From contig NC_057926.1 in the NCBI RefSeq assembly GCF_018873765.1, positions 54,945,378-55,009,377 of the forward strand: a stretch of 64,000 nt of DNA, given 5' to 3'. Each line of letters begins with the position of its first letter. The first letter of the stretch is position 1. Positions 1-64,000 of the stretch are shown one piece after another. Under the pieces are notes generated by a model that saw nothing but the letters and a program-made list of their open reading frames with translations, was not told where the DNA came from and searched no databases. Source of the stretch: Telopea speciosissima (Eukaryota > Streptophyta > Magnoliopsida > Proteales > Proteaceae). The translations under genes were made by a program, and so were the position numbers.

Positions 1-1465
1 ACTATATTTGATGCAGGCCCAGGCCTGCATGCCAAACTAAACCAAGACCAAGATTCAAATCGGTTCAAACTATACCACATCATCAAGGTCGATTTACACC
101 TTGTCATGTGGATTTGACTTCAAGAAGACCTCTAACCGATGGCACGCTGCCCTTAGCCGATTTCTATAATTCATTACCTTCACATTCCTATATTTTAGGA
201 ATTGGAAAATCTATCTAAGAGGTATCGGTTTTAAAGGAAAGACAATCTAATAGAGTTGGGTTTTGGGAAGAATTGATTAATGAGATCTCTCCTTGTTTTA
301 TTTCTTTCCTATATTTTAGTAAGGCTTTTGTTGATTAGAATATCAACAAAAGAGAAGACGCCACATGGACAACAACCTTGCATAGTTTTGACTTTTGAGA
401 GTTCTCCCTCCTTGGGAAGAATTTTGAGGAGAGAGAGAGAGAAATTCTTTAATTTAGTTTTTATTAATTTTGGTATTTCTAATTGTCAAGGAGTGTAGCT
501 TAGATTAGGATTAACTTTTCCTTTATTTTATGATGTAAATTTTGATTTAATTGTAGTCGTAGGATAGAATGCAATTAATGCTTGCAAATTAGATTTTATT
601 TTTCTTTCTATGCTCATTCAATAGTGTAAATAGGAGAATATTGTGGTGAATGCACTCTATGTCTTTTCATTATCAGTGAAGGTATATATATATACAAGTA
701 TAGATGGAGAAATTCTCTCCCTAATCTAAGGTAATTGATCCCTTTATAAAAGGGAACTGGATATACAAGGTATGAATGTAAAGATGGAAGGATATAGTTG
801 TACATGATACAGGATAAGGATGTACAGGTGGAAGGATAAGTCTGTACAGCTAAGTGAAACGGTAATAAATAGTGACAAATTGATTAAAGAAATTTTATTC
901 AGTTGAATATTGTGGAACTTTGTAGTGTTATACCTTATAACCTTAGAAAGTTACATTGCTTCCTTGAAAAGTTGTAAATCTTCATGTATCCTTAAAGAGT
1001 CATGTTAAACCCTTTAAAATGCCTTCTTGACTCTCCCGATCCATATCTCATAATTTTCTAAATATTGACTTCCATACCATTTTATTAAAGCTTAGTTTTG
1101 CGACATGGTAAAACCGTCTTGGCCTGCAATTAATTTCACAACTTAAAGCATGGGAAAAGAGAGGGAGAATGATTTGTGATGTACGCTATTGCCATAGTCC
1201 AAACTCGACAGTTTGCATTATTCTCTCATTAAAGAATCCCTAATTTCATCTTTATTTATCAATAATATATATAAATCAGAAATATCTACAGAAACATTAT
1301 TTGATGTAGTTTTTGTTGACTCTATTACAATATTTGATTTTAGAACGTGGGATCCAATTCATCAACAATAAGAATCAAACTAAAATTTTGAGAACTATAG
1401 ATTACATGAGTTAATATCCTATATAACTTATTAGTAACTCAAGTTTGGTTTCCATTTTTCCTTGT
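1..1465. other. Non-coding unit-start segment, copy 1
   Basis: No convincing gene. It opens with a 9-bp inverted repeat around a 2-bp centre (ATGCAGGCC-CA-GGCCTGCAT, about 13-32). A T-rich stretch resembling retroelement flanks follows, with a short GA run near 430 and a TA run near 683. Small ORFs here have no recognisable domains. The same segment starts every unit. Confidence 0.6.
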
Positions 1466-1571
1466 TCAAAGAGTCAACTTCATTGGTCGTATCATCTCAT
1501 TATCCTCATGGTCCAAAATCTGCATAAATGAGAAACAAAAGATTAGTAAGAGATTATATAACTAACAAAGA

Positions 1572-1763
1572 CAGAGGGTGGGACTTGGTGCAACGGTATA
1601 TAATTAAGGTTGCTCCATTGTGATCAAATGGTCACGGTTCGAGTCTGGAAACAGTTTCTGTGTAAAAGCAGGGATAAAGTTGCATGCATTATGATCCTCC
1701 CCAAACCTATATGTGATGGGAGTCTCGTGCATTAAATACGCTCTTTTTTTTTTCTTTTTTATT
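1572..1763 (+). mobile_element. Au-like SINE in intron 2 of A1
   Basis: tRNA-derived promoter: A-box-like region near TTGGTGCAACGGTA and B box GGTTCGAGTCTGG. The body matches the plant Au SINE pattern (GTTGCTCC, GGAAACAG, GATCCTCCCC, then TACGC and a T-rich tail). It is flanked by an imperfect 18-bp duplication at 1554-1571 and 1764-1781 (16 of 18 match). It lies antisense to the gene, within the 288-bp intron. Confidence 0.85.
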
Positions 1764-3469
1764 TTATATAAGTAACCAAGAGGATATCCATGATTAAAGA
1801 AGCTTACATGACAATGGTAGACATATCCAGGTGCAGCAGTGACATTGAAGGGATATGTTGTATTGGTCTCCACCATATTAAACTTGACAACCACAGTAGT
1901 TTGATATCCAGGCTCTATCTTCACTACATTCTTCCATGTCTTCTCATAGTTAGGGATTGTTAACAATTGCCCAATCGCATAGTCTGTCACGTTGCATGCA
2001 ATTGCATCGTTCTTTGCTGTCATACAATCGGAGAACGTAGTTTCATTTACCAACTCTTGAACCTTGATTGCCTGGAAGGTGGCTAAATGGATGTGGAGTG
2101 GGTGATTATCTGGGGTCAAGTTGATCACCTCCCAAACCTCGCTGGTACCGGATCTCGGAGTTTCCGTCACCGGATCCGAGAAGCTTTTCCCATTAATATA
2201 GAGATGGGTTGGGTTTTCGGTAGCACTATCATACTCATACAACACGATATACCTCTTCTGCACTGCACCTTCACTTGTTGCTACCGGATAATTCACTAGG
2301 CTTTTTGGGATTTTTGAATTATCGGGGCGGGTCGGATTACCCGATGCAATGATGAACTTCATGACGTTTCCGCTCAGCTGGTCTACCGGGCTGCCTGTCG
2401 GGTACGGGTAAGGTGCAGTATTGGTTAAGATAGACTCATTGGTTTGAGAAGGTGAGAAGTCAATTACAACATCGGCAATCTCAGCGGGGGCTAGGAGAAT
2501 ACTCTGAGTCTGGACTGGGGAGTTGAGGTATGATGAATCAGATCCTATTTGGACGAATGGGAGGCCATTGGATAAGGAGAAGTTAAAGTATCTTGCATTG
2601 GCGGCATTGATGATCCTAAAACGGTACTTCCTTCGTTGGACCTTAAGATATGGCCAAGCCTTACCGTTAACTATAATGGCATCACCAAAATATTCTGGTT
2701 GCCATTGTGGGTGAATGGAGGGGTTATCACCAGTTGAGTTGATGTAGATGGATCCATTTTTGAAGAAGCTTCGATCGATGATCATCAAGTGCCGATCAAA
2801 CTCTGATCCAGATGGGAGGTTCAAAGGGTTTTCTACTTTTGGATCACGGATGACGTAAGGCCCAATCAGGCCTGCTAAGAGGTTGACACGTGTTAATCCA
2901 AGTGCATGATCATGGTACCATAAGTTACCGGCAGCTTGGACGTTTGGGTATGTGTAGGTTGCTTGGGTCCATTGAGAGCCGGTATCATTGAAATTGGAGG
3001 TGAACCAGGAAAGTGGGTGACCGTCGTCTTGTGGTGGATGGACGCCACCATGGAGATGGACAACCGTTGGAACTCCACCATTCTTAGGGATGGCAGTGGT
3101 GATGGTGTGGTCCCATGAGAAGATGTGGTTTTGAGGAAGGTGATTCTCCCATGTCACTGATGTTGGCACCTGTTTCAAGGCCTCGATCACTGGTCCAGGT
3201 ATGGTTGCCTCCTCTGCCGATGTACCATATGCGAAGACTGTTGTTTTAGGTAAATCACGGTGGAATTTCTGCATGAGCATGAAAAAACCAAATACTATTA
3301 ATACGTGATTGATCTTAATTTAACGCATACCATAAGTGGAATTTTTTCACTATCAAATACAAGCTTCCTTTGTAAAGATGTTGCTCGCTTGTTAAAGACT
3401 TGGGTAGAACTCATCCTTAATGTCTAGCCATTAAAGAAAAAGGTTCCTAAATACCTAGGAAAATTATTT

Positions 3470-3638
3470 CCTCCAGTTCTCTGCCCGGCCTAGTTCTCCG
3501 AGTGCCTCTAATAAATTTATTTTTTTTTTGGGGGGTTGTGGTTGACTCAACCCAAGCGTGTTCGGGTAGGGGTAGGGTGGTCATTGCGCCCCCTCTCGTT
3601 AGAGGCACTGGGGAACTAGCCGGGCATGGAACTGGAGG
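3470..3638. mobile_element. Foldback MITE in A1 intron 1
   Basis: Long terminal inverted repeats: the left end begins CCTCCAGTTCTCTGCCCGG, and the right end read in reverse complement begins CCTCCAGTTCCATGCCCGG. The arms run on through GTGCCTCTAA. The centre has a T-run followed by a G-run of variable length (6 G here). Confidence 0.75.
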
Positions 3639-3899
3639 GGATAAAGATTATATAATTCTCTATATCGAACTATTCACATCCGATGTGAGATTATTACTTT
3701 GGTCTTCTGCGTGGAACCCCAACAATGCATAAGTACGAGAATTCTTGCATCCATCCATAAGCGGTGCATGATGGAATGCAATTCTAGCTCTTTTGCTTTA
3801 AATGATTATTAAAATCTAATTTATGATGGATGCAATAAGATTATTTCTTTTGAAATCTTTATCACCTAAATTAAACTAGGTGCATGTGCACGTGCACAT

Positions 3900-4011
3900 G
3901 CACGTAAATATGAGAGGCAATCATATGTCCATTTTTGCCATTTAAAGGGGATGAGGGGTATTTATGAAAACAAAACGGACATGTGGTTGCCTCTCAAATG
4001 TACGTACGTGC
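3900..4011. mobile_element. Small inverted-repeat element in A1 intron 1
   Basis: Inverted arms GCACGTAAATATGAGAGGCA and, from the right, GCACGTACGTACATTTGAGA enclose about 50 bp. A perfect 22-bp palindrome (3881-3902) abuts the left arm. The element is present in all A copies, with indels at its edge. Confidence 0.6.
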
Positions 4012-4612
4012 AAATGATATCCATTTTCAACTTCTAGGGGGTGCCGAGGGGTGGTTTTTGTAAGGATTAGCTAGAAGAGGAAGAATTTATATACCCATGT
4101 CTTCTCGAACATGCCTATGGTGAGATTTCCAGGTGCTGGTGAGCTGCGGTGTTGCATTGAATAACCAGAGAGCTTTGGAATTTGGGGGGAGCTCATCAAC
4201 ATACATTTGCAGAGAAGCAGAAACTTGGTGAAGGGTTGCATCAGTCACCGGAGTTTCCGCAGCGGTTGACGGTACTGGGGTGAGCGCTCCACCACAAATC
4301 AGCACGATTAACACTACAAAGATTGATAATAATCTGTTATCCCCCATTCTTGTAGACTTGAAGTGTTGATTTGTCTGTAAACAGAAAGCCAAAGTAAAAC
4401 AAGTCAGTTTATGGAATGGATATACGGAAGTCATTAAATTGGGTTAAGGCACTACTGTGAGAGAGAAGGTCCCTTGTATAAGCACCCTTGTTTCGAATCA
4501 AACTAACCTTAATTTGGGAATGAAAATTATCCAGAGAAAAGAAAAGAATGGATGAGACAAGGCGTGTGGTGAGCAACAAGATTGATGATGAATTGGCCAT
4601 ACTACTCACCCC

Positions 4613-7600: not shown

Positions 7601-8049
7601 TTAATTTTTGAGCACCTCCATTTTTCCAATTAACAGATTTCATTCTTCCAATAGCTGAAATGTGTAGAGAAATTATTTAGAGTTGGACGAGAGCTATAGA
7701 AAGAACCAACGCTTTTCTATTTTGCAAGCACATTGTTAGGTGTCAAATTAAACCTGGTGAGGGGTTAAGAGGGATCCACATGAACCTAGTGTGAAGACAC
7801 TGATCTTGGATTGATTCAGATGGCCAAGTTTTGTTCATTCAGATGTTGTCTGGGGTGCCTAAGAAAGACCGAGATATTGGTTCCTTTGAATAGAAATTTT
7901 ATCTTTGGAATTAGTTGATTGTTTTAAGTTTTCTGCTAATGGCAATGCCAAAGGTGGAAGTTTAAAGATTTTAGTTAGTTTTTGCATTGTCTTAAAGTCT
8001 CTGCTGATGGCAATGCCGAATGTGGAGTTTCAGGTCAAGATTTAGCATT

Positions 8050-8205
8050 GGGGAAAGTTTTCGTACACGACCGTATGCATGCACGATTGTGTCCCCTCTC
8101 ACAAAGAGTTGGAAAAGTCATAAACCCCCACCCATTAATTAATGCCATGAAACTCCCATCCTCTCACATGGATGGCTTACACAGCCATGTATGAAAACTT
8201 TCCGC
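8050..8205. mobile_element. Mutator-like MITE, copy 1
   Basis: Terminal inverted repeats GGGGAAAGTTTTCGTACACG and, from the right, GCGGAAAGTTTTCATACATG. It is flanked by the 9-bp duplication TTTAGCATT at 8041-8049 and 8206-8214, a length typical of Mutator-like elements. Confidence 0.8.
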
Positions 8206-8323
8206 TTTAGCATTTATACTCTTGTATCTTATTATCTGGGTATGCGTGGATTCTGGTATTTATATTATTATAATCATTTATTGACCGTATGTATACATGC
8301 AAATATATTATAAGAAAACAAAT

Positions 8324-8363
8324 GCAGCCCTAATAAAATAACTCGTTAGATTATTAGGGCTGC
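8324..8363. repeat. Perfect 13-bp stem-loop, copy 1
   Basis: GCAGCCCTAATAA and TTATTAGGGCTGC are separated by 14 bases. It is retained in all three spacers. It may be a very small inverted-repeat element or a structural relic. Confidence 0.6.
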
Positions 8364-8476
8364 CAACCGATGCATTCTTTTCTTCTTCTTTCATCATTTT
8401 TTTTTAATTATTTTCAAATTTTTTTGGTCATGTGCCTTAACCTACGTGAGGTTTTCATGTAAGTTGCTTGCTATGG

Positions 8477-8666
8477 GGATCCAGATCCTCTACGGTGCGC
8501 TGCCCGTAACGGCCTGTGCAGCGCAGATTGAGCCACGCGTGCAAAAATCGTCTTACCCCTGCCCAAACACCTTGCCCGAGCGGGGGTAAGGCAGTCATTG
8601 CGTGCACGGCCCAGTCTGCGCCGCATAGGCCGCTACGGACAGTTGCGCCGTAGACGATCTGAATTG
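8477..8666. mobile_element. GC-rich foldback MITE, copy 1
   Basis: Arms GGATCCAGATCCTCTACGG and, from the right, CAATTCAGATCGTCTACGG, continuing into GCCCGTAGCGGCC. It is flanked by the 9-bp duplication TTGCTATGG at 8468-8476 and 8667-8675. It is much richer in GC than its surroundings. Confidence 0.8.
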
Positions 8667-8741
8667 TTGCTATGGAGGATTTAGGTTAATAGAAAACCTA
8701 CTATGGAGGGCACATGCCGGGATGTGTCTGGCACAGCCCAG

Positions 8742-9175
8742 TAGGGCTGTAAATGAATAACCGAAAATTCAAATTCGATCTGTATCCATATCCGTTTAGG
8801 GGCATCTGTATTCGATTAGAGATATCTGGAAAAAAAATCCAAATACTCCGATAAAAATCCGAATCCGAATACTTAATTATAAAAAATTAAGTAAATAACG
8901 ATCTTGAGGGTTTTTGAAGATTCAACAGGTTCTAGAATATGAGGAAAAGAGAACCATGATCTAAAACTATAGATTGAGAGTGAATTGAATCCACTAGGGG
9001 GAGGAAGGTTCGGGTTACACAAGGCAGAGGTGTAAACGGATGGTCGAAAATCCGAATTCGATCCGCATCGAATCCATCCAAATCCGTTTAGAGGTATCCG
9101 TATTCGATCAGAAAATATCCGAATCCGATTACATCGATCCGTATCCAAGCCGAATCCGATCCGTTTATAGACCTA
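8742..9175. mobile_element. hAT-type MITE, copy 1
   Basis: Ends TAGGGCTGTAAATG and, from the right, TAGGTCTATAAACGG, with dense ATCCG/CGGAT subterminal repeats. The left duplication CAGCCCAG is at 8734-8741. The right copy is mutated here but intact in unit 2. Unit 3 has the empty site at 51818-51825, so the insertion happened in the unit 1/2 lineage. Confidence 0.85.
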
Positions 9176-9734
9176 CGGACCATCGGATGCCTCATTGGAC
9201 ACTCATTGGGTGATGCCCTCCAAGGAGAGCAGCCCAATCTAACATTCTTAGAGAGAAGTTGAGTTTTCCAACGAATGGGAGGCGATTGGATGAAAGTTAC
9301 TATTAGAGAATGATCAAGTGGACAGTAATTGCACAAAATGTGAAAGCCAACTAAAGTCTTGCTTACGTTCTCTGTTTCACATATAAGTGATGCAATGAAG
9401 ATGCTTACCGCCCATCGTCATGCCTTTAACACACTCGTATTAAGGGTATCTTGTATTACAACACAAGTTCTATTCAGAGCACTCATAGGATGCTATCAAG
9501 AAAAGCAGGCAAGGAGACTACAACAGGGGTTGCAAGGGGCATTGGAGATGGTATACGTAGAGCTACAAATTTGGATAGATGGCGTGGTGTTGGGACTTAT
9601 TCTAATGTTTATTAAATATTGTTGGGGTTGGTGGTGTCTTTTATTTTGCGGGTCTTTACAATTACTATCGGATATGTATTTATAATTGGGTAAGGTTTTG
9701 GGTTCATTAATATATGTACCGCTTTGGGATTTTT

Positions 9735-10063
9735 GGGTTCCTTACAAATTGTCTCCGTCGAAAAAATCTAAACACAAGTACTAAGAAATCACACTCGAGG
9801 TGGAAAGTAGTGTAGAGAGTTTTTTGAATTAACAAGAAATTTCTAATTCTCTTGGGTGAATGTAAGCATTCATGTGAAGGAAAATCATTATATGGATGAT
9901 TTTAGGGTTTTTGGATTCTCTACAAATTGTCTATGTTGGAAGAACCTAAACACATGTAAAGGGAAATCACATTGTACGTGAGGTGGAAAGTGGTCTAGAA
10001 TTTTTCTCTGAATTAGTGAACAATCTCTGATTCTCTTAGGGGAATATAAGCATTTATGTCGAA
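9735..10063. repeat. Diverged tandem duplication (about 175-bp period), copy 1
   Basis: Two successive blocks, 9735-9880 and 9911-10063, share the order ACAAATTGTCT, AACACA, AAATCACA, GAGGTGGAAAGT, TGAATTA, TTCTCTT and AAGCATT. The divergence is substantial, so the duplication is old. The same pair is present in units 2 and 3. Confidence 0.65.
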
Positions 10064-10483
10064 CCACGTTAAATTCCTCATGTTATATGTAGTTATATGC
10101 TTGAGTTCTTCCTTGTAATTGCACAATCGTCTCCAATAAAAGTGTCAAAAACTTTACCTTTGTTGAAGTCTTCGGATATTCAGATGACGGATGGGATTTT
10201 TTAAAACTTGAAAACTCCACTCCAAATTCTTTTTGTTGAGTGGATTTATATAAAACAAGGATCAATTGCGGCTGGGTTTACCCAAGGCCCAATCAATTGG
10301 GCCCTAAAATCGTCCTAAGTTCCTATATCAGGCCTTACCCTGAAACATTTATATATAAGCTGGGCTAGCTTGGTTGATGTCTACCCAGACTAAGACTTAC
10401 CCAGGCCCAGTCCAAGCTTGGACCATAAACAATCCATTTTTAGAGAGAGAGAGAGAGAAGGGCGTATAACAATTAATAGATAT

Positions 10484-10498
10484 TTTATTTTTTGGTAA
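10484..10498 (-). mobile_element. 15-bp LINE-tail insertion, copy 1
   Basis: TTTATTTTTTGGTAA lies between two copies of AACAATTAATASATAT (10468-10483 and 10499-10514). In reverse complement this reads TTACC followed by an A-rich tail, like the 3' end of the LINE at 14556-21158. It is present in all three units. Confidence 0.6.
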
Positions 10499-10689
10499 AA
10501 CAATTAATACATATTAAAGAATGAAAAGTATAACATACGTTAATTGTTGGAATGTATTCCAAGTCAATTGCGTATTCTTGGGTGAGAATGCGAAATCAAT
10601 CTAGAATGCATACCAAACACGGCCTAACTTTGGCTGCCTTATTCAATTTTGAGAAAGAAATTTTATTAGGACAGAGCTTCGGATGCTTT

Positions 10690-11250
10690 TCAAAGAACCA
10701 TCTTCAATGGTCATATCATCTGGTTATCTTCATGGTCTAAAATCTGCATGTATGAAAAAACAAAACAATTCAATCAAGAGATCTATGTGTTTAAGAGTAC
10801 AAATTCATATATAAGTAACCCCTATATGAAGAGGATCCAGATCCTCTATCGTATGTTGCCCAGAACGGTCTGAGCGGTGCAGACTGAGCTGCACGTGCAA
10901 AGACCGCCTTACCCCCACTGGGCCGCACAAGCCGCTACGGGCACCTGCGCCGTAGAGGATCTGAATTGCTAAGATGATTAGAAAGACTCACATGACAATG
11001 GTAGACATATCCAGGTGCAGCAGTAGCATTGAAAGGATATGTTGCATTAGTCTCCACCATATTAAATCTGACTATCGTAGTAGTTTGATATCCAGGTACT
11101 ATCTTCACTACATTCTTCCATGTCTTCTCATTGTTAGGGATATTTAGCAATTCCCCACTTAAATGGGCTGTCACGTTACACCCAATTGCATCATTCTTCT
11201 GTGTCATCATACAATTTTTAAATGAATTAAGATCCACCAATTCCTGCACC
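10690..11250 (-). pseudogene. Gene B remnant B1: last exon and end of main exon
   Basis: The 3' part of main exon 2 (11250-10992) encodes the region from VQELVDLNSF to YVYHCH and still ends at a GT donor. The last exon (10743-10690) reads ILDHEDNQMI and then has TGA at 10713-10711 where B3 has an arginine codon. Upstream of about 11250 the gene is cut off and joined to copia sequence, so the signal peptide, HLHGG, HDH and HPLHIH sites are all lost. Residues resemble B3 more than A. The nonsense codon is shared with unit 2, so the locus died before units 1 and 2 separated. Confidence 0.88.
10833..10968. mobile_element. Foldback MITE in intron 2 of B1 remnant
   Basis: Arms GGATCCAGATCCTCTA and, from the right, CAATTCAGATCCTCTACGG. 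It belongs to the same family as 8477-8666. Unit 3 has an uninterrupted sequence at this point (tatatgaagatgattag near 53713), so it inserted after B1/B2 and B3 separated. Confidence 0.75.
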
Positions 11251-11884
11251 CTCAGCTCTACTTGCCACGCCAACTGCCACATTTGACTCTACCTGGTATC
11301 CTGATTCAGGTGCAACACATCACCTGACTGCTGATTTAGAAAATATGAATGTCAACACTCCTTATACTGGTTTCGATCAAGTTAGAGTGGGTAATGGAGT
11401 AGGTTTGCCCATACATCATACTGGAACTTCTATATTTTCTACTCCTCCTCATTCTTTTACCGCCCACAGGTTGGTTTCCCTAACCCTTCTCCCTAACCTT
11501 TTCCCAACACCGCCACACCATCCGCCCACCACACATACCCCAACCCGACAACCCACTTCCCCTCTTATCCTCATCCTAACCCGCCACTTCTACCCACTCC
11601 CCATCCATCCACTGTTTTACCTTGGTACCACGATCTGGTGCATTTCACCATGTAAGCGCTTTTCTCGGATTATTATCACATGTGACATGGATCAAACTAT
11701 CTATAGTAACACAACTGGTTGGTCATCACATGCGGATTATACACGCTCTATTTTAGTCATCTAATATTGGTTTCCCATTCTTTGTATCACCCAATATTGG
11801 GTTACCTTGTTTAAATCTAATTGTATGTCATGTATATATATCCCTTTTGGGACTATGAATAAATTGAAGATCATTATTCACTCT
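11251..11884 (+). mobile_element. Ty1/copia fragments replacing the body of gene B, copy 1
   Basis: From 11257 one frame reads LATPTATFDSTWYPDSGATH and continues HLTADLENMNV, a copia protease with the DSGA active site. A proline-rich gag-like stretch follows in another frame and ends in WYPDTGAFHHVT, a second protease start, clear in unit 2 and altered here at 11628-11660. So at least two out-of-frame fragments are joined. The last about 250 bp, up to GATCATTATTCA, looks like the end of an LTR. There is no reverse transcriptase or integrase and no paired LTRs. Confidence 0.75.
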
Positions 11885-12897
11885 AACAAGAGAGAAGGTG
11901 GTAGTGTAATATAGTATAAACAACCGTGTTTCGAATCAAACTAACCTTTAATTTGGGAATAAAAATTATCCAGAGAAATAATGGATGAGACAAGGCGTGT
12001 GGTGAGCACAAGAATGATGATGTATTGGCCGTACTATTCAGCCTATTTATACTATTCAAGGGCCCATAGGTCAACAAAAAAAAAAAAAGATTTAATTAAA
12101 ATTTTTTTTAATAGAAAGAGGCTGCTTTGTTTAATCATGGTGTAAAATACATGGAAGGAGTATTAAGTATTAACAAACTCCGCAGTCCATGGAATGGAAA
12201 TGGACTATACTGTCGTATACGTAACCGACAGAGACCTCGTTGCCAGAGAATCAACAAATCTATTTTCCTCCCTTAAAACATAAGAAAAAAATACATGAAG
12301 ATAATTGATAATTTCACATATGGTGATCACATCATGCATGTTTACTTGAACACATGAAATATCCTAACTAGCTATTTCAAACCCAAAGACGTGTGGGGGC
12401 GATTTTAGTTGAATCCATCTAACAAATTGAAACTTTAATTAAATTTTTTTTAATATGCAACGCACCAGATTGTCCCTTGCTTTGCAATCATTAGAAATGT
12501 TTAAATTGTCTAATCAAGTGGCTGATCATCTTTCCAAGTTGAAGTCATCTATTGGCTGGGAGGAATTCTCTTTTGAGTCTTTGCCCTCGAAGATCCAAGC
12601 CTGTATAGTTAGGGATCTCAGGGGATGCAGACATGCTCGTCTAACATGTAATTAAGAGATCTCTTTTTGTTTTGTGAGGGCCTGTTGTTTTGGCCTTCTG
12701 TTTTTTTTTTTTATTCTCTCTTTCCCTCTTTGATATTTTATTTAATATAAAGCTTTCCTTTTCCAGAAAAAAAAATGTTTAAATTAATAAAATTATGAAC
12801 AACTAAGGTCAGTCCATTGAATTACAATTTTTGGAAAGAGTGGAAGGCTAGAGTTACTTTTAAGTAAGTGGAAAGCATGGATCTCTTAAATTCAATT
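11885..12897 (-). promoter_or_regulatory. Orphan LPR-type promoter, proximal part, copy 1
   Basis: Aligns by eye with the A-gene 5' flank: gtttcgaatcaaactaacct, ttatccagagaa, gacaaggcgtgtggtgagca, then tatttcaaacccaaag and gttgaatccatc. No coding exon follows it; copia sequence lies immediately downstream. About 280 bp near 12060-12340 has no counterpart in A. A LINE tail sits at 12508-12772, and the distal flank resumes at 21200 beyond the Mutator-like element. Confidence 0.7.
12508..12772 (+). mobile_element. 5'-truncated LINE tail, copy 1
   Basis: Starts with 48 codons beginning SNQVADHLSKLKSS and ending RHARLTCN before a stop, which resembles the end of a LINE RNase H domain. About 100 bp of 3' UTR and a short A tail follow. 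It is flanked by a perfect 13-bp duplication AAATGTTTAAATT at 12495-12507 and 12773-12785. Confidence 0.85.
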
Positions 12898-13079
12898 ATT
12901 ATGGAGGGGAAATTTTCATCAACACCCCTTCTGTTGGACCGTGGAATTAATACCACCCCACTAAAGACCAATATATCAATTTGAGCCCAAATACTAACGG
13001 AAATATCTGAGTAACAATTAAATAGTGATGTCACCATGTTAGTAATTTTGTAAAGTCAATGTCGCCCTTTTCATTACAA

Positions 13080-14440
13080 CAACTAAACCTTACCTATCTT
13101 CGTCTTCCCCAGTCTACCTTCTCATCTCTGTAACTCTGCCATCTCCGCCTTTGAACTCTTGCACTTCACCCCATCTTCTTCTTCCTCAGTCGAACGAAGA
13201 ACATTGTAGCTTGCATCACCTACTGCAACTGGCCAAAGTTACCTCTCCAACCTCTGCAGCGGCCCACATCATCCCTGCCTTGCAACCCCAAACCACCGCC
13301 GCCCCTGCGACCCCAAACCACCACCCCACCCCGCCCCTCCCTGACCAACGACATCAAATTTGAGTTCTAGCCCAGCTACTCTAGTCACCACTCTTTGCAA
13401 AGCAATCCAAGCTTTAGGTTGTCGCTTCAATATATACAACTCTGTATTGCAAGGGAGCTTCCTGGGTCTCATCTCATTCACATAGATGAGCAAAACACAA
13501 GGGAAATTAACCCATCAAAACCCAGCTTCAGCTTCACACACATACACACACACACACACACTCTGTTCTGATCGATTTGGATGTTAGGTTCTTGGTTTGC
13601 TGATCTGGGTCTGCTTGCTTGGCTTTTTAAATGATCAATTTGGGTCTGCTTTATTTGTGGAATAGAAATCTGTGAGAACACTAGTTCACTACGCATCCTG
13701 CCCATCGCTGTATGCTCCACCACCGCGATCGGTGTGCCCAGCCGCTGCAACCCGCCATCGCACCCACATCTCCATCTGTTGTCGACGCATCAGAGCCACC
13801 AACATCTTGGCCTAAAACCAAATCTGGTCCAGTTCAGGAATTCATATTCTAGAATGACAATTCTAAAGCACAAATTATGTTCATTCGAGGGTAAAACCCA
13901 CAAGAACATACAATGAAATGAAAAACCAAAACATTGGGGGAAAATCAGTACTTTTGGGTGCCCCAAAAAAAATCAATTGAAGAAATCTTCCACTACCTCA
14001 ACAATATTGACCCTTGATTAGTGATAACCCTGGAAATCTTATCTGAGAGAGAGAGAGAGAGAGGATCTCGCCTTCCCAAATCTTCCACCATGGATCTCTC
14101 TCTCTCTCCTCCTTTCTCGCCTTTAGGTCCTTACTGCCACTGGACCGAGGGATGGAATGCAACGGATGCTGGCTCCAACGAGGATGAAAGGCCGCCATCG
14201 TCTTCTTCCCCGCTATATGCCTTTCTCCTCCGACCTCTGTAACTCACACTCTCTGGAACTTTCTCAACAACCAACCAAACGGTTGAGTGGAATGATAAAC
14301 ATCAATTTCCTTCAAATTTCCTCCACATATAGCAAGGGGTTGAGCAAGGGTTGTGTAGGTGGGTGTTCACAGGTACAACAAGGAGTTCTAGGGTTGCGCC
14401 GGAGAAATTAGGTTGGAGATGGGTTTTTTAAGTTTTTAGA
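13080..14440. other. Interior of the Mutator-like element, copy 1, possible captured sequence
   Basis: Has base composition unlike the flanks: a C-rich block at 13270-13340, a CA run at 13541-13560 and a GA run at 14046-14062 followed by an ATG at 14091. That ATG opens a 50-codon ORF beginning MDLSLSPPFSPLGPYCHW. The arrangement resembles a captured 5' UTR and first exon, but I recognise no protein. Confidence 0.35.
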
Positions 14441-14617
14441 ATAAAGGGTAGTTTGGACATTTTACTCTCATTCAGTTAACTATCAGTTATGTCCGTTAGT
14501 TTTTGGGTCCAAATTGATATATTGGGCCTTAATGGTGTGGCATTAATTCCACGACGATTTTATAGCTTCAACTTCCTACTCTAATTAAAAAATTTGGGAA
14601 GAGAATGCCTCTGTTCC

Positions 14618-14892
14618 TAGGGGTACGTGTAAATGAATAGTCAAAATCCGTTTCCGTATCCGTGTTTGTATCCATTTAGCACTATCTGAATCAGTCCGAA
14701 AGCTAAACGGATGCGGATATGGATAGGCTATAGCTATCCGAAAAGCTATATTTACATGCAAACGGATAAAATATCCGATCCGTATCCGTGTCCGTATCCG
14801 TTTAACACTATCCGAATCCGTCCAGATAGCTAATCGGATGCGGATGCGGATATAGCACTATTCGAGCCGAATCCGATCCGTTTATAGCCCTA
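14618..14892. mobile_element. hAT-type MITE inside the LINE 5' region, copy 1
   Basis: Ends TAGGGGTACGTGTAAATGA and, from the right, TAGGGCTATAAACGGATCGG, with many ATCCG/CGGAT repeats between. The 8-bp duplication TCTGTTCC is at 14610-14617 and 14893-14900. It is the youngest layer of a three-deep nest (MITE in LINE in Mutator-like element). Confidence 0.85.
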
Positions 14893-15260
14893 TCTGTTCC
14901 CCCCCACTCCGCTTTCTTTCCTCTTGTACATGTTTCGTTTCTCACTCTTGATCTCCTACGTCTGACCCCTCTTCTTCTTTAGCCGTCTTGCCTCTTCATT
15001 TTTTCTTCTTTTTTTGGGACTTCGGGCTAGGGACGCAGCTTCATTAACTCCCCATGGAGCGAGGATGGGACGTGGCTTTAATGCTTTCCTTCGTCTTTCA
15101 CTTTACGCTTCATTTTCTTTCAACGTTTTCACTCTTTGTACTCCTGCTTCTCTCGTTCATCTTCACTTTTCCCCTACTGATTCTTCTCTTCTCTCCTTTC
15201 ATCTGGCTCTTTTCTCTTTCTGTTTTTATTAGTTTCCTTCTCGGCGTATCGGTTTTCATT

Positions 15261-16884
15261 ATGTCACAAGCTTCTTTGTCTTTCCGTAGGCGGAGTCCGG
15301 GGTTTAATGTGGGGAGGTCTCTATCACGGTCTGGTTCTTCGCACTCCTCCACCTCGTACCCTAGACGTCAACCACCATCTGTTGTTTGGAGAGGATCTCC
15401 CTCTAGTGCTCCGGGTGATGCGGATGCTCAGTCTTCCACTCCTATTTTCAGGTCTAAGATTCTGTATGGGTTCACTTTGGGGTACCCCAGACCTTCACAA
15501 GATGAGTTATGTTCGAAGTTGGTTGATCTGTGGGAACGGCTTGGCGCTGTTTATCTTTGTTGCTATGAACGTGGAGGTTTCATGGTTGAGTTTACCTCTT
15601 GTCTTGAGGGGGACAAAGTCTGGGGTTTGGGTCCTTGGTGGTGCAGAAGGTCACTCATAAATCTTATCGAACATGCTCTTGATGATGACCGTTATGCCTA
15701 TGAGAGGAAGTTTTTCCCTATCTGGGTGCAACTTTGTGATATTCCTTCGACTGTTTGCTCCTATGATGCAGTTAAGCAGGCTGTTTCTTGTATCGGTTAG
15801 TTACTGGATCTCCATATTCATGAACCTTCCCCTGGGTGTCAGATTGTTCGTGCTAAGGTGTTGTTTCGTATAAGACAGCAGGTGTGTTTGTCTTCCATCA
15901 TCCGTAATGCGTTGTAGATTCCTTTCTGTGGCATTTTTGTATGAGGTGTTTAAGATTTGCTTTCGTTGTGGCCGCTTTTTTCATGTTGTCGATTATTGCT
16001 CTTTTCAACAACCCCCCGATCGACGTTCTCCGTGGGGCTCCTTTGACAAAGTGATTACTTAACCTTTGTTTGTTAACTTGGCAAATGCTCACTCGACTTT
16101 TGTTATGGACGTGACTATGTTAGAGCCTGATATTACTTCTTCGGATGAGCTTGGGCTTCCTGTGAGTCCGGGGCTTTCTGTTTCGATGGATGTGGATGAT
16201 CCAGTGGTGTTTGCGGAGATTCTGGTGTCCTCTTACGCTTTGCTTTTAATGGCTTTATCGGCCCCGACATGGTGGAGCCGGTTGTTGCGTTATGCCCTCT
16301 TCCGGCAAGTATGGATGCGGTATATATTGCGATTCTTGTGTGGTTACGATCTGGTGATCTTTGGGTTGAAGATTAAGACTTCTAGTCCATCTAGCGAAGA
16401 CTCGTTCATTTCATCTCTGTTCGTTAATCTGCAACCCCTTCCGCTGCCTGGCGATTTTTTTGCTGATACTCTGTCGGTGGAGGCGATGATTGGTGGCTCT
16501 TTGGTTGAGAATATTGAGGGCACTGGGGTGGAGGGCTTTAGATGACTTTTCCTGTTGATCCACTGCGGTCCTTTTCTATTACGGGTAGTATGGCGCCAGT
16601 ATATGTTGGGTTAGTTGTCGAGAACCCTCTCCATAAAAAACGAAAGCTTGTGACGATGGACGTTCCTCCCCATATCTCGTCTGCTTTTGATTCTGTCAAA
16701 TATTTCTTTCAGTCGTTCTTGGCTGCTTCTGATGATCCTGATGCTCTCCTTCGTTTGGTTAAAGATTGGTTAAATGAGTTGTCTCTTGGTGCTTCTTCTG
16801 GGTCGGATACTTTTTTGATTCTTTAGTACGTCCGGAGCTCGAGAATCGGGGATACAAGAGTTGCATGTTCCTAGCTCGGTATAG
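15261..16884 (+). pseudogene. LINE ORF1 (DUF4283 plus zinc knuckle), broken, copy 1
   Basis: Starts MSQASLSFRRRSPGFNVG. A DUF4283-like region follows (WERLGAVYLCCYERGGFMVE to FPIWVQLCDIP), and then a CCHC knuckle CFRCGRFFHVVDYC near 15958-15999. A stop after SCIG (15798) and later frameshifts break it into pieces, the last ending at 16884. The family protein binds LINE RNA during retrotransposition. Confidence 0.85.
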
Positions 16885-17076
16885 GTTCCTTTCCTCCACT
16901 CTAATTTCTTTGACTATTGTTTGGTTCTCTTTACTATTTTGATTTGTATTTCTGTTAGTACTTGTATTCTTAACCATTGCTATCTTGCTCGTGCTTTTAT
17001 TCCTAGACGTAATTTTTAATTTATTTACTCTGGTTACTTTTTGTCTCTTATCTATTTTGTTCTGTTGGCTTATCTA

Positions 17077-20000
17077 ATGATCAGTTTGTCTTGGAATATT
17101 AGGGGCTTAAACAACCCCTTTTCTCGTCGTTGCCTGAGGCTTAATATTGCTTCTTATAATCCTGATATTTTGTTTCTTTGTGAAACTAAGGGCCTTGATC
17201 ACTCTTCTCTTCGTATTTCTGGTATTCCTTCTTGTTATGACCTTGTTTCTTTCTCAAACTCTCCTTCTGGAGCTCTGGGGAAAAGAGGTCTTTGCCTGTT
17301 TGTTAAAAAGGCCCTGTAGGTGGTGCAGATTGTTGTGGAACCTCAGTTTATTGGGATTAAAATTATGGATAAAGTTTGGGGTGTATTTTGGTGCATTTTT
17401 GTTTACGCTCCACCTCACCGGCATCTGTGTACCTCTTTCTGGATTGATGTGCATACATTTCTTTGTTCTATTATGGATCCTATTTGTCTTATGGGTGATT
17501 TTAACGAGATTTTGGATCCGTTGGATAAGTTGGGTGGAAAGCCTTTTTGTCATACTCCATCATCTTCACTCCTTTTGGATGTGATTAATTCCTGCTCTTT
17601 GGAGGAAATTAAGTTGATTGGTTCCAGTTTCACTTAGTCTAATCAGTAGAAGCCCCCTCATCTTATCAGAGAACGAGTGCATCGAGCTTTTTGTTCTGCT
17701 GCGTGGTTGAATCTGCTTCCCTTGACTTCCCTTTGTAAAGGCCCTGCTATCTGTTCTGATCATAACCCAATTATCCCAAATACTTTTCCTTCCGGGCCTC
17801 TTTCAAAAAGATGTTTCATTTTCAATTAGCCTGGACTAGTCACCCTGAGTTTAAGGCTGTGGTCTCGGATTTTTGGGACAAGGAGTCTATGGATTCTTTC
17901 CCTTGTAGATTATCTTCTTTTTCCAATTTACTGAGAAGATGGGATCGTGATGTGTTTGGCCATATTAAGATACTTAAAAACCAGCTGGTTAGTGAGATTG
18001 GTGAGTTAGTGGACACCCCTTCCTTCGTAAGGATAGCCTCATCCGTTCAACCAATAGGCTCAACCGGGTCTTGGATGCGGAGGAAAGCTTTTGGTTGCAA
18101 AAATCTGGGTAGAATTATATTCAGTCTGGAGACAGGAACACTAGATTTTTTCATGCTGTGGCCAAGCAAAATCTCAGACGTCGTAAGATTGATTTCCTTT
18201 GCTTAGATAATGGTGAGAAGGTCACTAATCCTGAGGACATTGCCTTTGCCTTTGTTCTGTATTTCTCCAATATCTTCACCTCTTCTTCCCCTTTGGATGC
18301 GGATTTCGTGGAATGTCTTTTTCCATCTTGTATCTCTGAAACCGAAGCTTCTTCTCTTTGCGCCCCCCCTTCTTTGGATGAACTTCGATGGGTGGTGTTT
18401 TCTCTTGGGCCACTTAAAGCCCCTGGTATTGATGGATTCCAAGCCTGTTTTTTTCAAAAATTCTAGGATCACCTTAAGGATTCTCTTTTGAGTTTTGTTT
18501 GTCAGTGTTTCTTGTCTACTTATATACCTGCTAATATCAATCATACCCTCATCTGTTTAATTCCTAAATCTGACTCAGCCTCGGCCCTGAATGATTTTAG
18601 ACCTATAAGTTTGTGCACCCCTCTTTCTAAAATCATTGCTAAATTGCTTGCGAATAGGCTTAAACCTTTTCTTCCTTCCATGATCTCTCCTTTTCAAGGA
18701 GCCTTGTACGGGGTCGTCATAGTTCTGATAATATTATTATTTTACATGAAAATTTTCATTTCCTCAAACACAAGAAGGGTAAGGATGGATGGGCAGCCAT
18801 AAAGATCGATATGTCTAAAGCCTTGACCGCATGGAATGGTCTTTTGTGCTTGCAATATTCAAATTCCTTGGGTTTGGACAGCAGTGGTGCAATTTTATAT
18901 TGACTTCCACTTCTTTTTCGATGAAGGTTGATGGGACCCCTTTTGGGCTGTTCTCGGGGACTAGGCGCATTCGCCAAGGGTGTCCTTTAAGTCCCTATTT
19001 ATTCATTATGGGTATGGAGGTCTTGTCGCATCTGATATCTTCTTATAGAGACCTTAATCTGTTCAAGGGTATTAAGGTGGCTCGTGGTGCTCCTGAGATA
19101 ACTCATTTACTTTTTGCTGATGATATTTTTATCTTTTGTAGAGCATCTTTGGAAGATTTTGGTACTATTAAGGCCATTATGGATCTTTTCTCTGACCTCT
19201 CGGGGCAGGAGATTAACTTTTCTAAAAGTGAATTGTATTTTAGTAAAAATGTTTCTGTGTCTGAGAAGTCTCGTTTGAGCAGGTTTTTGGGTATCCCAGA
19301 GATGAACTCGAATACTTCTTATTTGGGAACTGCCCTCTTTCCTTTGAGATCTAGGGTTAAACAACTAACTCCTTTAGTCAATCGTATATCTGTTAGATTA
19401 TCTAGTTGGAAAGCTAACAATCTGTCTTTTGCAGGACGGGGTGTTTTGATCAAATCAGTTCTCAACTCTTTACCGGCTTATCTTATGAGTTGTTTTTTTT
19501 TTCCTAAATATATTTGTAAACAAATTGACTCTATTAGCTATAATTTTTGGTCTGGTGGTTCTGCTTCTCACAGAAAACTTTCTTTGGTTTCTTGGAAGGC
19601 TATGAGCTCACTCACTTATTTAGGTGGATTAGGATTTCGTTCGGCCCGAACTCAGAATTTGGCCCTTCTCCTTAAACTTGGGTGGAGATTGATTTCTGAA
19701 AAATCATTCTGTCTGGGCCAAGGTCCTTAAGGCTAGGTACTTTCCTCATATTTCCTTGTTTGATGCTAAGACGCGTCTTAAAAAAGGATCTTGGTGTTGG
19801 AATAGTATCACAAGAATTATTCCTTCACTTCAAGCTTTCTGCTTTCGTAAGAACGGTAATGGTAAGCATACTTTCTTTTGGACTGATCCTTGGGTTCCCT
19901 CTTTACCTGGATTCACTATCAAACCGGGTTCTTCGCAGCGATTGTTCCCTGAGAGAGTGGATCTATTTCTCTCTAACCAGGCTTGGAATGTTGATCGCGT

Positions 20001-53173: not shown

Positions 53174-53178
<5 letters not shown>

Positions 53179-53200: not shown

Positions 53201-53215
53201 TTTATTTTTTGGTAA
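53201..53215 (-). mobile_element. 15-bp LINE-tail insertion, copy 3
   Basis: TTTATTTTTTGGTAA lies between perfect copies of AACAATTAATACATAT (53185-53200 and 53216-53231). Orthologous to 10484-10498. Confidence 0.65.
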
Positions 53216-56893: not shown

Positions 56894-57027
56894 TCTTGTA
56901 GTGTTGATTTGTCTGTAAACAGAGCAGCCAAAGGAAATTAGTATGAGTGAGCGAGGTGTGTGCTCAATGCCAATGCCGAGCACAAGATTTAGGATGAATT
57001 GGGCAACATTAATGTCACCCGGCCCCT

Positions 57028-57035
57028 TATATATA
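57028..57035 (-). promoter_or_regulatory. TATA box of gene B3
   Basis: TATATATA about 135 nt upstream of the B3 start codon. The TTTACAG acceptor-like sequence seen ahead of A exon 1 is also present (56916-56922), so a 5'-UTR intron is possible, but no convincing donor was found. Confidence 0.55.
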
Positions 57036-59276: not shown

Positions 59277-59827
59277 GGAAAAATTACACTGCGAGTCTGC
59301 GACCCCTGAGGTTTGTCGTAAATACAAAGTGACCCCCTGTGTTTCTAAATTATACAGTCGCACCCTTTCTGATTGGACGGTGTTAAATAATACAATGTAA
59401 AATGCCAATTTTACCCTCTTCTAATATTATTAACCAAAAACTGTTAAATAATACAATGTAAAATGACAACTTTGCCTTCTTCAAATCCTCTTTCCTCTCT
59501 AACCCTTTCTTCTTCTTCTTGATTTTTTTTTTTTTTTTTTTTGGCTTCTTCTTCTCCTTGGTTGCCGTCGTCGCTTTCATCGCTGCCATTCCGGCCAACC
59601 CACAGCTCCAGGAGGATAAGGAATGCAGAATTCCGGAGAAGCAAAAACCTCTTCTCTTCTCCACGCTCTCCTTTAGCCACTTCTCTCTGTTCTCCTTCCT
59701 TCTCTTCTTGATGAAGACAACCACTTCCAACGCCGCTGCTTCTAATTTCTTTTCTCCGTACCATCCAACTAAGATTATCTCTCTCAGTTGCGGCTCCTCT
59801 TCAACGATGCCAATCTTATCTCTTGAT
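59277..59827. mobile_element. Truncated Mutator-like element with possible captured sequence
   Basis: Begins with GGAAAAATTACACTGCGAGT and runs through cccctgaggtttgtcg and gtgaccccctgtgtttc, a pattern common to plant Mutator-like terminal repeats. An internal repeat of tgttaaataatacaatgtaa occurs (59383 and 59443). A GC-richer stretch (59560-59820) has codon-like composition on both strands but no known domain. The element is cut at the unit 4 border, so its second end is missing. Confidence 0.5.
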
Positions 59828-61516
59828 TAAATAGTATATTTAATACGAAAATAAAAGGCTACTAGACTTCGTGAAGCTTGCGCTAAGACACGAAATGGGA
59901 GAAATAACCGCCTCGCCCCAAGAAATGAAAAATTCCCACACTTGTTGGATGCCCCCATGCATTCTCTCATTGGCCAGACTGCCTCTGTCCAACCCTGTTA
60001 TAGACCTATTGCAGAGGGATGACGAAATAGACATGGAATGATTCTTTTAACTATATTTGATGCAGGCCCAGGCCTGCATGCCAAACTAAGCCAAGACCAA
60101 GATTCAAATCGGTTCAAACTATACCACATCATCAAGGTCGATTTACACCTTGTCATGTGGATTTGACTTCAAGAAGACCTCTAACCGATGGCAAGCTGCC
60201 CTTAGCCGATTTCTATAATTCATTACCTTCACATTCCTATATTTTAGGAATTGGAAAATCTATCTAAGAGGTATCGGTTTTAAAGGAAAGACAATCTAAT
60301 AGAGTTGGGTTTTGGGAAGAATTGATTAATGAGATCTCTCCTTGTTTTATTTCTTTCCTATATTTTAGTAAGGCTTTTGTTGATTAGAATATCAACAAAA
60401 GAGAAGACGCCACATGGACAACAACCTTGCACAGTTTTGACTTTTGAGAGTTCTCCCTCCTTGGGAAGAATTTTGAGGAGAGAGAGACAGAAATTCTTTA
60501 ATTTAGTTTTTATTAATTTTGGTATTTCTAATTGTCAAGGAGTGTAGCTTAGATTAGGATTAACTTTTCCTTTATTTTATGATGTAAATTTTGATTTAAT
60601 TGTAGTCGTAGGATAGAATGCAATTAATGCTTGCAAATTAGATTTTATTTTTCTTTCTATGCTCATTCAATAGTGTAAATAGGAGAATATTGTGGTGAAT
60701 GCACTCTATGTCTTTTCATTATCAGTGAAGGTATATATATATATACAAGTATAGATGGAGAAATTCTCTCCCTAATCTAAGGTAATTGATCCCTTTATAA
60801 AAGGGAACTGGATATACAAGATATGAATGTAAAGATGGAAGGATATAGTTGTACATGATACAGGATAAGGATGTACAGGTGGAAGGATAAGGATGTACAG
60901 CTAAGTGAAACGGTAATAAATAGTGACAAATTGATTAAAGAAATTTTATTCAGTTGAATATTGTGGAACTTTGGAGTGTTCTACCTTATAACCTTAGAAA
61001 GTTACATTGCTTCCTTGAAAAGTTGTAAATCTTCATGTATCCTTAAAGAGTCATGTTAAACCCTTTAAAATGCCTTCTTGACTCTCCCGATCCATATCTC
61101 ATAATTTTCTAAATATTGACTTCCATACCATTTTATTAAAGCTTAGTTTTGCGACATGGTAAAACCGTCTTGGCCTGCAATTAATTTCACAACTTAAAGC
61201 ATGGGAAAAGAGAGGGAGAATGATTTGTGATGTACGCTATTGCCATAGTCCAAACTCGACAGTTTGCATTATTCTCTCATTAAAGAATCCCTAATTTCAT
61301 CTTTATTTATCAATAATATATATAAATCAGAAATATCTACAGAAACATTATTTGATGTAGTTTTTGTTGACTCTATTACAATATTTGATTTTAGAACGTG
61401 GGATCCAATTCATCAACAATAAGAATCAAACTAAAATTTTGAGAACTATAGATTACATGAGTTAATATCCTATATAACTTATTAGTAACTCAAGTTTGGT
61501 TTCCATTTTTCCTTGT
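59828..61516. other. Non-coding unit-start segment, copy 4
   Basis: Same segment as 21607-23293 without the deletion of copy 3. Its left neighbour is a Mutator-like fragment rather than the promoter-like sequence found left of copies 2 and 3. Confidence 0.6.
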
Positions 61517-61622
61517 TCAAAGAGTCAACTTCATTGGTCGTATCATCTCATTATCCTCATGGTCCAAAATCTGCATAAATGAGAAACAAAAGATTAGTAA
61601 GAGATTATATAACTAACAAAGA

Positions 61623-61816
61623 GAGAGGGTGGGACTTGGTGCAACGGTATATAATTAAGGTTGCTCCATTGTGATCAAATAGTCACGGGTTCGAGTCTGG
61701 AAACAGTCTCTTTGTAAAAGCAGGGATAAAGTTGCATGCATTATGATCCTCCCCAAACCTATATGTGATGGGAGTCTCGTGCACTAAATACGCTCTTTTT
61801 TTTTCTCTTTTTTTTT
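61623..61816 (+). mobile_element. Au-like SINE in intron 2 of A4
   Basis: Orthologous to 1572-1763. The B box here reads GGGTTCGAGTCTGG, closest to the consensus plant form. Confidence 0.84.
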
Positions 61817-63523
61817 TTATATAAATAACCAAGAGGATATCCATGATTAGAGAAGCTTACATGACAATGGTAGACATATCCAGGTGCAGCAGTGACATTG
61901 AAGGGATATGTTGTATTGGTCTCCACCATATTAAACTTGACAACCACAGTAGTTTGGTATCCAGGCTCTATCTTCACTACATTCTTCCATGTCTTCTCAT
62001 AGTTAGGGATTGTTAACAATTGCCCAATCGCATAGTCTGTCACGTTGCATGCAATTGCATCGTTCTTTGCTGTCATACAATCGGAGAACGTAGTTTCATT
62101 TACCAGCCCTTGAACCTTGATTGCCTGGAAGGTGGCTAAATGGATGTGGAGTGGGTGATTATCTGGGGTCAAGTTGATCACCTCCCAAACCTCGCTGGTA
62201 CCGGATCTCGGAGTTTCCGTCACCGGATCCGAGAAGCTTTTCCCATTAATATAGAGATGGGTTGGGTTTTCGGTAGCACTATCATACTCATACAATACGA
62301 TATACCTCTTCTGCACTACACCTTCACTTGTTGCTACCGGATAATTCACTAGGCTTTTTGGGATTTTTGAATTATCGGGGCGGGTCGGATTACCCGATGC
62401 AATGATGAACTTCATGACGTTTCCGCTCAGCTGGTCTACCGGGCTGCCTGTCGGGTACGGGTAAGGTGCAGTATTGGTTAAGATAGACTCATTGGTTTGA
62501 GAAGGTGAGAAGTCAATTACAACATCGGCAATCTCAGCGGGGGCTAGGAGAATACTCTGAGTCTGGACTGGGGAGTTAAGGTATGATGAATCAGATCCTA
62601 TTTGGACGAATGGGAGGCCATTGGATAAGGAGAAGTTAAAAGTATCTTGCATTGGCGGCATTGATGATCCTAAAACGATACTTCCTTCGTTGGACCTTAA
62701 GATATGGCCAAGCCTTACCGTTAACTATAATGGCATCACCAAAATATTCTGGTTGCCATTGTGGGTGAATGGAGGGGTTATCACCAGTTGAGTTGATGTA
62801 GATGGATCCATTTTTGAAGAAGCTTCGATCGATGATCATCAAGTGCCGATCAAACTCTGATCCAGATGGGAGGTTCAAAGGGTTTTCTACTTTTGGATCA
62901 CGGATGACGTAAGGCCCAATCAGGCCTGCTAAGAGGTTGACACGTGTTAATCCAAGTGCATGATCATGGTACCATAAGTTACCGGCAGCTTGGACGTTTG
63001 GGTATGTGTAGGTTGCTTGGGTCCATTGAGAGCCGGTATCATTGAAATTGGAGGTGAACCAGGAGAGTGGGTGACCGTCGTCTTGTGGTGGATGGACGCC
63101 ACCATGGAGATGGACAACCGTTGGAACTCCACCATTCTTAGGGATGGCAGTGGTGATGGTGTGGTCCCATGAGAAGATGTGGTTTTGAGGAAGGTGATTC
63201 TCCCATGTCACTGATGTTGGCACCTGTTTCAAGGCCTCGATCACTGGTCCAGGTATGGTTGCCTCCTCTGCCGATGTACCATATGCGAAGACTGTTGTTT
63301 TAGGTAAATCACGGTGGAATTTCTGCATGAGCATGAAAAAACCAAATACTATTAATACGTGATTGATCTTAATTTAACGCATACCATAAGTGGAATTTTT
63401 TCACTATCAAATACAAGCTTCCTTTGTAAAGATGTTGCTCGCTTGTTAAAGACTTGGGTAGAACTCATCCTTAATGTTTAGCCATTAAAGAAAAAGGTTC
63501 CTAAATACCTAGGAAAATTATTT

Positions 63524-63698
63524 CCTCCAGTTCTCTGCCCGGCCTAGTTCTCCAGTGCCTCTAATAAATTTATTTTTTTTTTTGGGGGGGGGGGGGGGGT
63601 TGACTCAACCCAAGCAGTGTTCGGGTAGGGTTAGGGTGGTCATTGCGCCCCCCTCTCGTTAGAGGCACTGGGGAACTAGCCGGGCATGGAACTGGAGG
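63524..63698. mobile_element. Foldback MITE in A4 intron 1
   Basis: Orthologous to 3470-3638. The central T and G runs are expanded, and the ttgtgg after them is lost. Confidence 0.72.
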
Positions 63699-63957
63699 GG
63701 ATAAAGAATATATAATTCTCTATATCGAACTATTCACATCCGATGTGAGATTATTACTTTGGTCTTCTGCGTGGAACCCCAACAATGCATAAGTACGAGA
63801 ATTCTTGCATCCATCCATAAGCGGTGCATGATGGAATGCAATTCTAGCTCTTTTGCTTTAAATGATTATTAAAATCTAATTTATGATGGATGCAATAAGA
63901 TTATTTCTTTTGAAATCTTTATCACCTAAATTAAACTAGGTGCATGTGCACGTACAT

Positions 63958-64000
63958 GCACGTAAATATGAGAGGCAATCATATGTCCATTTTTGCCATT
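63958..64000. mobile_element. Small inverted-repeat element in A4 intron 1, cut by window end
   Basis: Left arm of the element seen complete at 3900-4011. The neighbouring sequence tgcatgtgcacgtacatgca is a near-palindrome that differs from the unit 1 form. Confidence 0.5.

Follow-up and report, generated by a model that had tools for sequence, protein, structure and literature searches.

In Arabidopsis, LPR enzymes link iron chemistry to the phosphate-guided growth of roots. We describe here a stretch of 64,000 nucleotides from Telopea speciosissima (referred to below as the window), located at positions 54,945,378-55,009,377 of contig NC_057926.1 (C11) in an assembly of 822.9 Mb and 1287 contigs, which lies inside a tandem array of genes for LPR-like multicopper oxidases. 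We consider it very probable that this array is real, old and still active, the processes proposed for it being growth of the array, exchange between its copies and oxidation of Fe2+ by its products.

Clusters of LPR genes have been described previously. Five rice genes (OsLPR1-5) lie within 65 kb of chromosome 1, some of them with three exons and all except OsLPR4 with a last exon of 54 bp, a feature also present in Arabidopsis LPR1 and LPR2 (PMC5048653); phase-0 introns likewise belong to the plant LPR gene structure (PMC9168544). In sacred lotus the COG2132/LPR family has at least 16 members that arose by whole-genome and repeated tandem duplication, and the expanded clade is separate from LPR1 and LPR2 (PMC4053705). 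In Acorus and Cryptocoryne a high LPR copy number has been tied to life in water or wetlands (PMC9300462, PMC10873505). The Telopea array resembles the rice genes in its clustering and its 54-bp last exon, and differs from them in its size (13 loci over 138 kb), in its near-identical repeat units, which are 16-22 kb long, in the truncated remnants of one gene type (B) and in the presence of a further, single LPR gene at another place in the genome. Its likeness to the lotus family, which also belongs to the Proteales, lies in a large tandem expansion. Since such expansions are already known from rice and lotus, the Telopea array is not a new kind of locus; it adds another case. The Proteaceae are named as the family type of severely phosphate-poor habitats (PMC11528361), and a duplicated phosphate-transporter array is mentioned for them (PMC12095975); passages of these two papers make no mention of an LPR array, and among the papers listed in literature searches none is about such an array in the family, judged by title and start of abstract, a search that does not establish absence from print.

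Organization of the array

An earlier note, made from the window alone, had proposed four A and three B loci on one strand within 64 kb, and this is borne out by gene models for all seven, each of which lies on the minus strand (Table 1). The loci are not all intact: B1 and B2 are remnants, and every A locus but A3 has its frame shifted by 1 bp; the complete open genes in the window are A3 and B3 only. Three exons are present in A1, A2, A3 and B3 (the first of 252 or 253 bp, the second of about 1460 bp and the last of 54 bp), separated by phase-0 introns bounded by GT and AG, and the A3 and B3 exons of 252, 1461 or 1458, and 54 bp correspond to the plant LPR gene structure. Both predicted proteins contain HLHGG, WYHDH, HPLHIH and HCHxxxHxxxxM, which we take to be the T1, T2 and T3 copper motifs and which are those of an LPR1-like multicopper oxidase.

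Table 1. Positions of array genes, remnants, transposable elements and repeat units, numbered from the first base of the window
Feature	Position	Strand	Description
A1	1466-4347	minus	Exons 4347-4095, 3268-1808, 1519-1466; surplus C in exon 1 (about 4184) shifts the frame
A2	23294-26166	minus	Exons 26166-25915, 25092-23631, 23347-23294; one surplus base at 24309 shifts the frame of exon 2
A3	44506-47371	minus	Exons 47371-47120, 46308-44848, 44559-44506; open, 588 aa
A4	61517-63322	minus	Exons 63322-61861, 61570-61517; one surplus base at 62638 shifts the frame of exon 2
B1 remnant	10690-11250	minus	Terminal ~260 bp of exon 2 followed by exon 3 (10743-10690), which has an internal stop
B2 remnant	32522-33081	minus	Same structure as B1
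B3	53438-56893	minus	Exons 56893-56642, 55193-53736, 53491-53438; open, 587 aa
Copia-like gag-pol fragment	11231-11764	plus	Adjoins B1; its Pfam match to Pol_BBD (E=6e-4) does not reach the curated cut-off
Degenerate long interspersed nuclear element (LINE)	15048-20646	plus	Pieces match DUF4283, endonuclease, reverse transcriptase and zf-RVT; in unit 1, ends approximate
Unit 1	1-21828		A1, B1 remnant and transposable elements
Unit 2	21829-43653		A2, B2 remnant and transposable elements
Unit 3	43654-60049		About 16.4 kb; A3 and intact B3
Unit 4 (start)	60050-64000		Alignable to about 79069, outside the window; B4 remnant at about 70.7-71.3 kb

The array is cut by both ends of the window, as had also been suggested: on its left-hand side it is preceded by A0 and B0, and on its right-hand side come the remainder of A4 (its exon 1 at 64147-64404, just beyond the window end) and then B4, C, D and E. 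When 295 kb around the array were read in 25 pieces, 13 loci were located on one strand of C11:54,923,428-55,061,784 (138 kb) in the order A0 B0 A1 B1 A2 B2 A3 B3 A4 B4 C D E. These 295 kb contain no N, their remaining sequence yielded no other LPR match, and nothing in the flanks tested (18 kb to the left and 24 kb to the right) matches the array over 250 bp or more. The interval of about 19 kb that separates unit 4 from C (79070-98000, numbered as for the window) has no counterpart of at least 250 bp in the rest of these 295 kb. A scan of the window for tRNA genes found none, and two intergenic open reading frames of unit 1 outside its transposable-element segment (6766-7119 and 9344-9685) matched no Pfam family.

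A search of the whole genome with the B3 exon-2 protein gave at least 19 matched stretches, which comprise the 13 array loci (A2 and A4 with two each), two on the unplaced contig C641, one on contig C2 at 58.25 Mb and a weak one (34%) on C2 at 1.75 Mb. On C641 (1-19668) an A5-B5 unit follows an E-like exon 1 and the end of a LINE; the 880-bp stretch with this exon 1 is 99.5% identical to E, and the contig represents either an unplaced copy from the array or an alternative haplotype. The locus at C2:58.25 Mb (C2L; C2:58,249,183-58,250,637) is a single LPR gene away from the array and is probably the single LPR1 orthologue, and the assembly thus contains 16 LPR loci in total. Other clusters of Cu-oxidase_3 matches occur at C7:5,166,970-5,199,342 and C1:3,653,923-3,686,712 and are probably of laccase type. 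A search for P1BS-like motifs covered 1.5 kb of upstream sequence for each of 10 array genes (the start of D being approximate); six had none and four had one, a result that lends them no support.

Repeat units, relative ages and exchange

Units 1 and 2, each of 21.8 kb and offset by 21,828 bp, are 99.2% identical over 22.5 kb, far beyond chance, and aligned over the unit length they differ by 90 single-nucleotide polymorphisms (SNPs) and 47 indels. Unit 3 matches units 1 and 2 at about 99% as far as about 46.5 kb, and from there mostly at 87-97% per 300-bp tile. A larger block of 27 kb (-7866..19060) aligns with 52199..79069 at 98.6%, and between these blocks, which represent units 0-1 and units 3-4, there are 185 mismatches in 27 kb (0.69%).

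The paralogues themselves are of graded age, with synonymous divergence (dS) from 0 to 1.1. In exon 2, dS is 0.16 between A and E, 0.47 between A and D, 0.57 between A and B, 0.80 between A and C, and 1.13 between B and C, and the ratio of nonsynonymous to synonymous divergence (dN/dS) for A and B is 0.21. The six pairs of recent copies tested have an exon-2 dS of 0.02 or less, and B0 equals B3 over all 1458 bp of exon 2. The array would have been founded by an ancestral LPR copy and would have grown by repeated tandem duplication, with C and B the oldest branches, followed by D, then E, and finally by the very young A-B units.

Exchange between copies is indicated by the 27-kb block, by the composition of A3 and by a B truncation found in three units. 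A3 is identical to A0 at all 484 sites that span 80 bp of upstream sequence, exon 1 and the start of intron 1, while in later intron 1 and early exon 2 (alignment columns 1000-1750) it has 29 mismatches to A0 against eight to A1; on this pattern A3 reads as a hybrid, with a 5' end of A0 type and a part of A1 type from intron 1 on. The 5' part of B1 has been replaced by Copia-like sequence, the 5' side of B2 likewise runs into a Copia-like fragment, and B1, B2 and B4 have one Copia junction and one exon-3 stop in common. The LINE has a copy at the equivalent place in unit 2 and fills much of units 1 and 2 outside the genes. Unit 0 carries a 5.1-kb insertion (-12993..-7866; C11:54,932,384-54,937,511) with a CGT target-site duplication, which from its ends we read as CACTA-like; a clean empty site is present in unit 3 (at about 52,200) and in C641, and units 1, 2 and 4 align ungapped through the same position. 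A stretch of about 613 bp downstream of A is present in units 1, 2 and 4 and not in unit 3 (44357-44368 versus 704-1328).

Graded paralogue ages, remnants that share a transposable-element junction, the hybrid A3 and a transposon present in one unit whose site is empty in the other copies examined are together what is found in a tandem array undergoing birth and death, and the earlier suggestion of such evolution appears well supported, with unequal exchange as the probable route. The dosage change that was likewise suggested may or may not follow, as three of the four A copies in the window read as frameshifted and the number of recent units is uncertain. Unequal crossing-over and gene conversion would still be reshaping the array, having duplicated segments of 22 and 27 kb and produced A3, and the Copia-associated truncation of B may have arisen in one unit and then been copied to three.

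Protein family and predicted iron site

The nearest solved structures to A3 and B3 are CotA laccases (E values of 2.5e-103 and 9.7e-101, respectively), and residues 46-587 of A3 and 75-584 of B3 align with Bacillus CotA (PDB 1gsk). CotA is also the nearest solved structure to Arabidopsis LPR1, and it has a shorter surface loop and no bona fide acidic triad (PMC9168544); the array proteins differ from it in having two of the three triad residues, and A3 in three extra loop residues. With Arabidopsis LPR1 and LPR2, as they are presented there, the array proteins have in common a CotA-like structure, the copper ligands and equivalents of E269 and D462 (PMC9168544).

The ruler for the iron site was a working Arabidopsis LPR1 sequence that, with a constant offset of ten, matches six published residues (E269, D370, D462, H464, C563 and H568). 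Nine open exon-2 proteins of array type (A0, A3, A5, B0, B3, B5, C, D and E) were aligned to it. The equivalents of E269 and D462 are kept in all nine and in C2L. The D370 equivalent, a point of difference from Arabidopsis LPR1, is lost in all nine, being serine in A, D and E and asparagine in B and C; the C2 gene product keeps all three acidic residues, with aspartate at this position. Identity to this LPR1 sequence over exon 2 is 57-62% for the array proteins and 71% for the C2 protein. The family assignment in the earlier description of these genes as LPR1-type ferroxidases is therefore sound, and the complete triad implied by that name is absent from the nine array proteins aligned; we would file them as LPR1-like with two of the three triad residues.

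The Arabidopsis D370A variant is instructive in this regard, as it keeps its activity with a rise in Michaelis constant (KM) from 3.6 to about 13.6 uM, an approximately fourfold lower affinity for Fe2+, and the authors regard D370 as expendable for high-affinity binding (PMC9168544). By analogy, and given the retained E269 and D462 equivalents, we expect the array proteins to be working iron oxidases with somewhat lower Fe2+ affinity. Bacterial relatives were represented by a single weak locus (26%) in one scan of genome contigs, and a tblastn search of plasmids gave 711 records, all below 60% identity and at 36.8-37.9% among the 12 matches listed; no bacterial or plasmid match entered any tree.

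Assessment of alternative explanations

Several points weigh against the reading of an old and active array of iron oxidases. In the exon-2 tree C2L joins the B branch (support of 67) and C is placed with a support of 77, which makes the deep order tentative, and the lower dS between A3 and B3 in exon 1 (0.32) than in exons 2-3 (0.57) is a sign that conversion may distort the ages. Only intron 1 and early exon 2 show the switch within A3 clearly: columns 750-1000 give a mixed signal (six versus eight), A0 and A1 tie in mid-exon 2, which is uninformative, and at the 3' end it is A0 that is the odd copy, A3 and A5 differing at one site in 497. The D370 assignment depends on the working LPR1 sequence, checked only against six published residue numbers, and an aspartate three residues past this position, present in the C2 protein as well as in all nine array proteins, might partly substitute for D370. 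A1, A2 and A4 read as frameshifted. Finally, the divergence of the recent units (0.69%) is close to the heterozygosity of Telopea, given as 0.76% (PMC13080361), so that part of the recent layer could represent two haplotypes in a row.

This last point underlies an explanation in which the old paralogues are real and the recent layer is inflated, units 0-1 (perhaps with 2) and units 3-4 being the two haplotypes of one locus assembled end to end. Besides the similarity of the two percentages, it draws on the additional A-B unit of the unplaced contig C641 and on a surplus of private 1-bp indels in units 1, 2 and 4. With three-way differences and complex indels excluded, these three units have 84 private 1-bp indels to 249 private SNPs, compared with seven to 111 in the B-intact units (p=1.9e-6); when the A-gene segment is removed, because the hybrid A3 inflates the B-intact SNP count, the latter become six to 61 (p=0.003). 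The absence of N from the 295 kb argues against a gapped scaffold join, however, and the units with an intact B (0, 3 and C641) and those with a B remnant (1, 2 and 4) number three each, all of them distinct, which is more than two haplotypes provide and, if all are real, requires at least one haplotype with two or more of each. The units also differ in structure, the CACTA-like insertion being restricted to unit 0 and the E-like exon 1 before A5 to C641, and the hybrid A3 needs exchange between A types. We regard end-to-end haplotypes as a possible but unlikely account. That the whole array is an artefact concealing one A-B pair, the outcome against which the earlier note had cautioned, does not fit the finding that A to E are different genes (exon-2 dS 0.16-1.13), nor the three B-intact and three B-remnant units, too many for two haplotypes with one of each, although the recent copy number is uncertain. 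We conclude that on the assembled sequence the tandem duplication is real and the exact number of recent copies tentative.

A second explanation, which we think rather improbable, is that the units with B remnants are dying, with A1, A2 and A4 as genuine pseudogenes and function confined to A0, A3, B0, B3, C, D and E. The distribution of frameshifts is in keeping with this, since they occur in all three A genes of B-remnant units and in none of the three of B-intact units (A0, A3 and A5). Moreover, of the 84 private 1-bp indels of units 1, 2 and 4, only 22 sit in single-base runs of three or more, and simple homopolymer error consequently lacks the power to explain all 84. Yet each of the three frameshifts is private to its copy, involves one base and falls within a single-base run, and about 7.7 such indels would be expected in 5.3 kb of coding sequence at the 1-bp indel rate of these units themselves (84 in 57.8 kb), where three are observed. 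A1 and A2 show no SNP in 1767 coding sites compared with 90 in 20,013 non-coding sites (p=0.0008), which fits constraint or conversion and not decay, and 1-bp indels are equally common in the coding sites (two in 1767) and elsewhere (33 in 20,013). Given this general surplus of 1-bp indels, the three frameshifts are no proof of pseudogenes, and they may be consensus errors.

That the array proteins are instead laccase-like oxidases with a substrate other than iron seems to us quite doubtful, for while the D370 equivalent is gone from all nine, the closest solved structure is a laccase and the lotus paper suggests that the separate clade described there has a novel function (PMC4053705), the E269 and D462 equivalents are retained, A3 is three residues longer than CotA at the loop in the alignment, and Arabidopsis D370A stayed active with an affinity for Fe2+ about fourfold lower (PMC9168544).

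Implications for the Proteales

In the reading that we prefer, that of a real, old and active array, each intact gene would encode a secreted, copper-loaded oxidase of CotA/LPR fold acting on Fe2+ in the root cell wall, and the site with two of the three acidic residues would hold Fe2+ with somewhat lower affinity than canonical LPR1 does. It is conceivable, though we put it forward as a speculation that will quite probably need revision, that an LPR clade with a two-residue site predates the split between Proteaceae and lotus and was amplified in tandem in both, as a trait of the Proteales tied to phosphate poverty and iron chemistry and not to aquatic life; the Telopea array would then be a bank of lower-affinity iron oxidases of the cell wall beside one high-affinity LPR sensor.

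Telopea, a land plant of the Proteaceae with 16 LPR loci in its assembly, runs counter to the association of enlarged LPR families with an aquatic habit that was drawn from lotus, Acorus and Cryptocoryne, and a purely aquatic explanation is weakened accordingly. With one canonical-looking LPR gene and a 13-locus array with a two-residue triad in the same genome, this plant offers a natural test of the effect of the extra copies.

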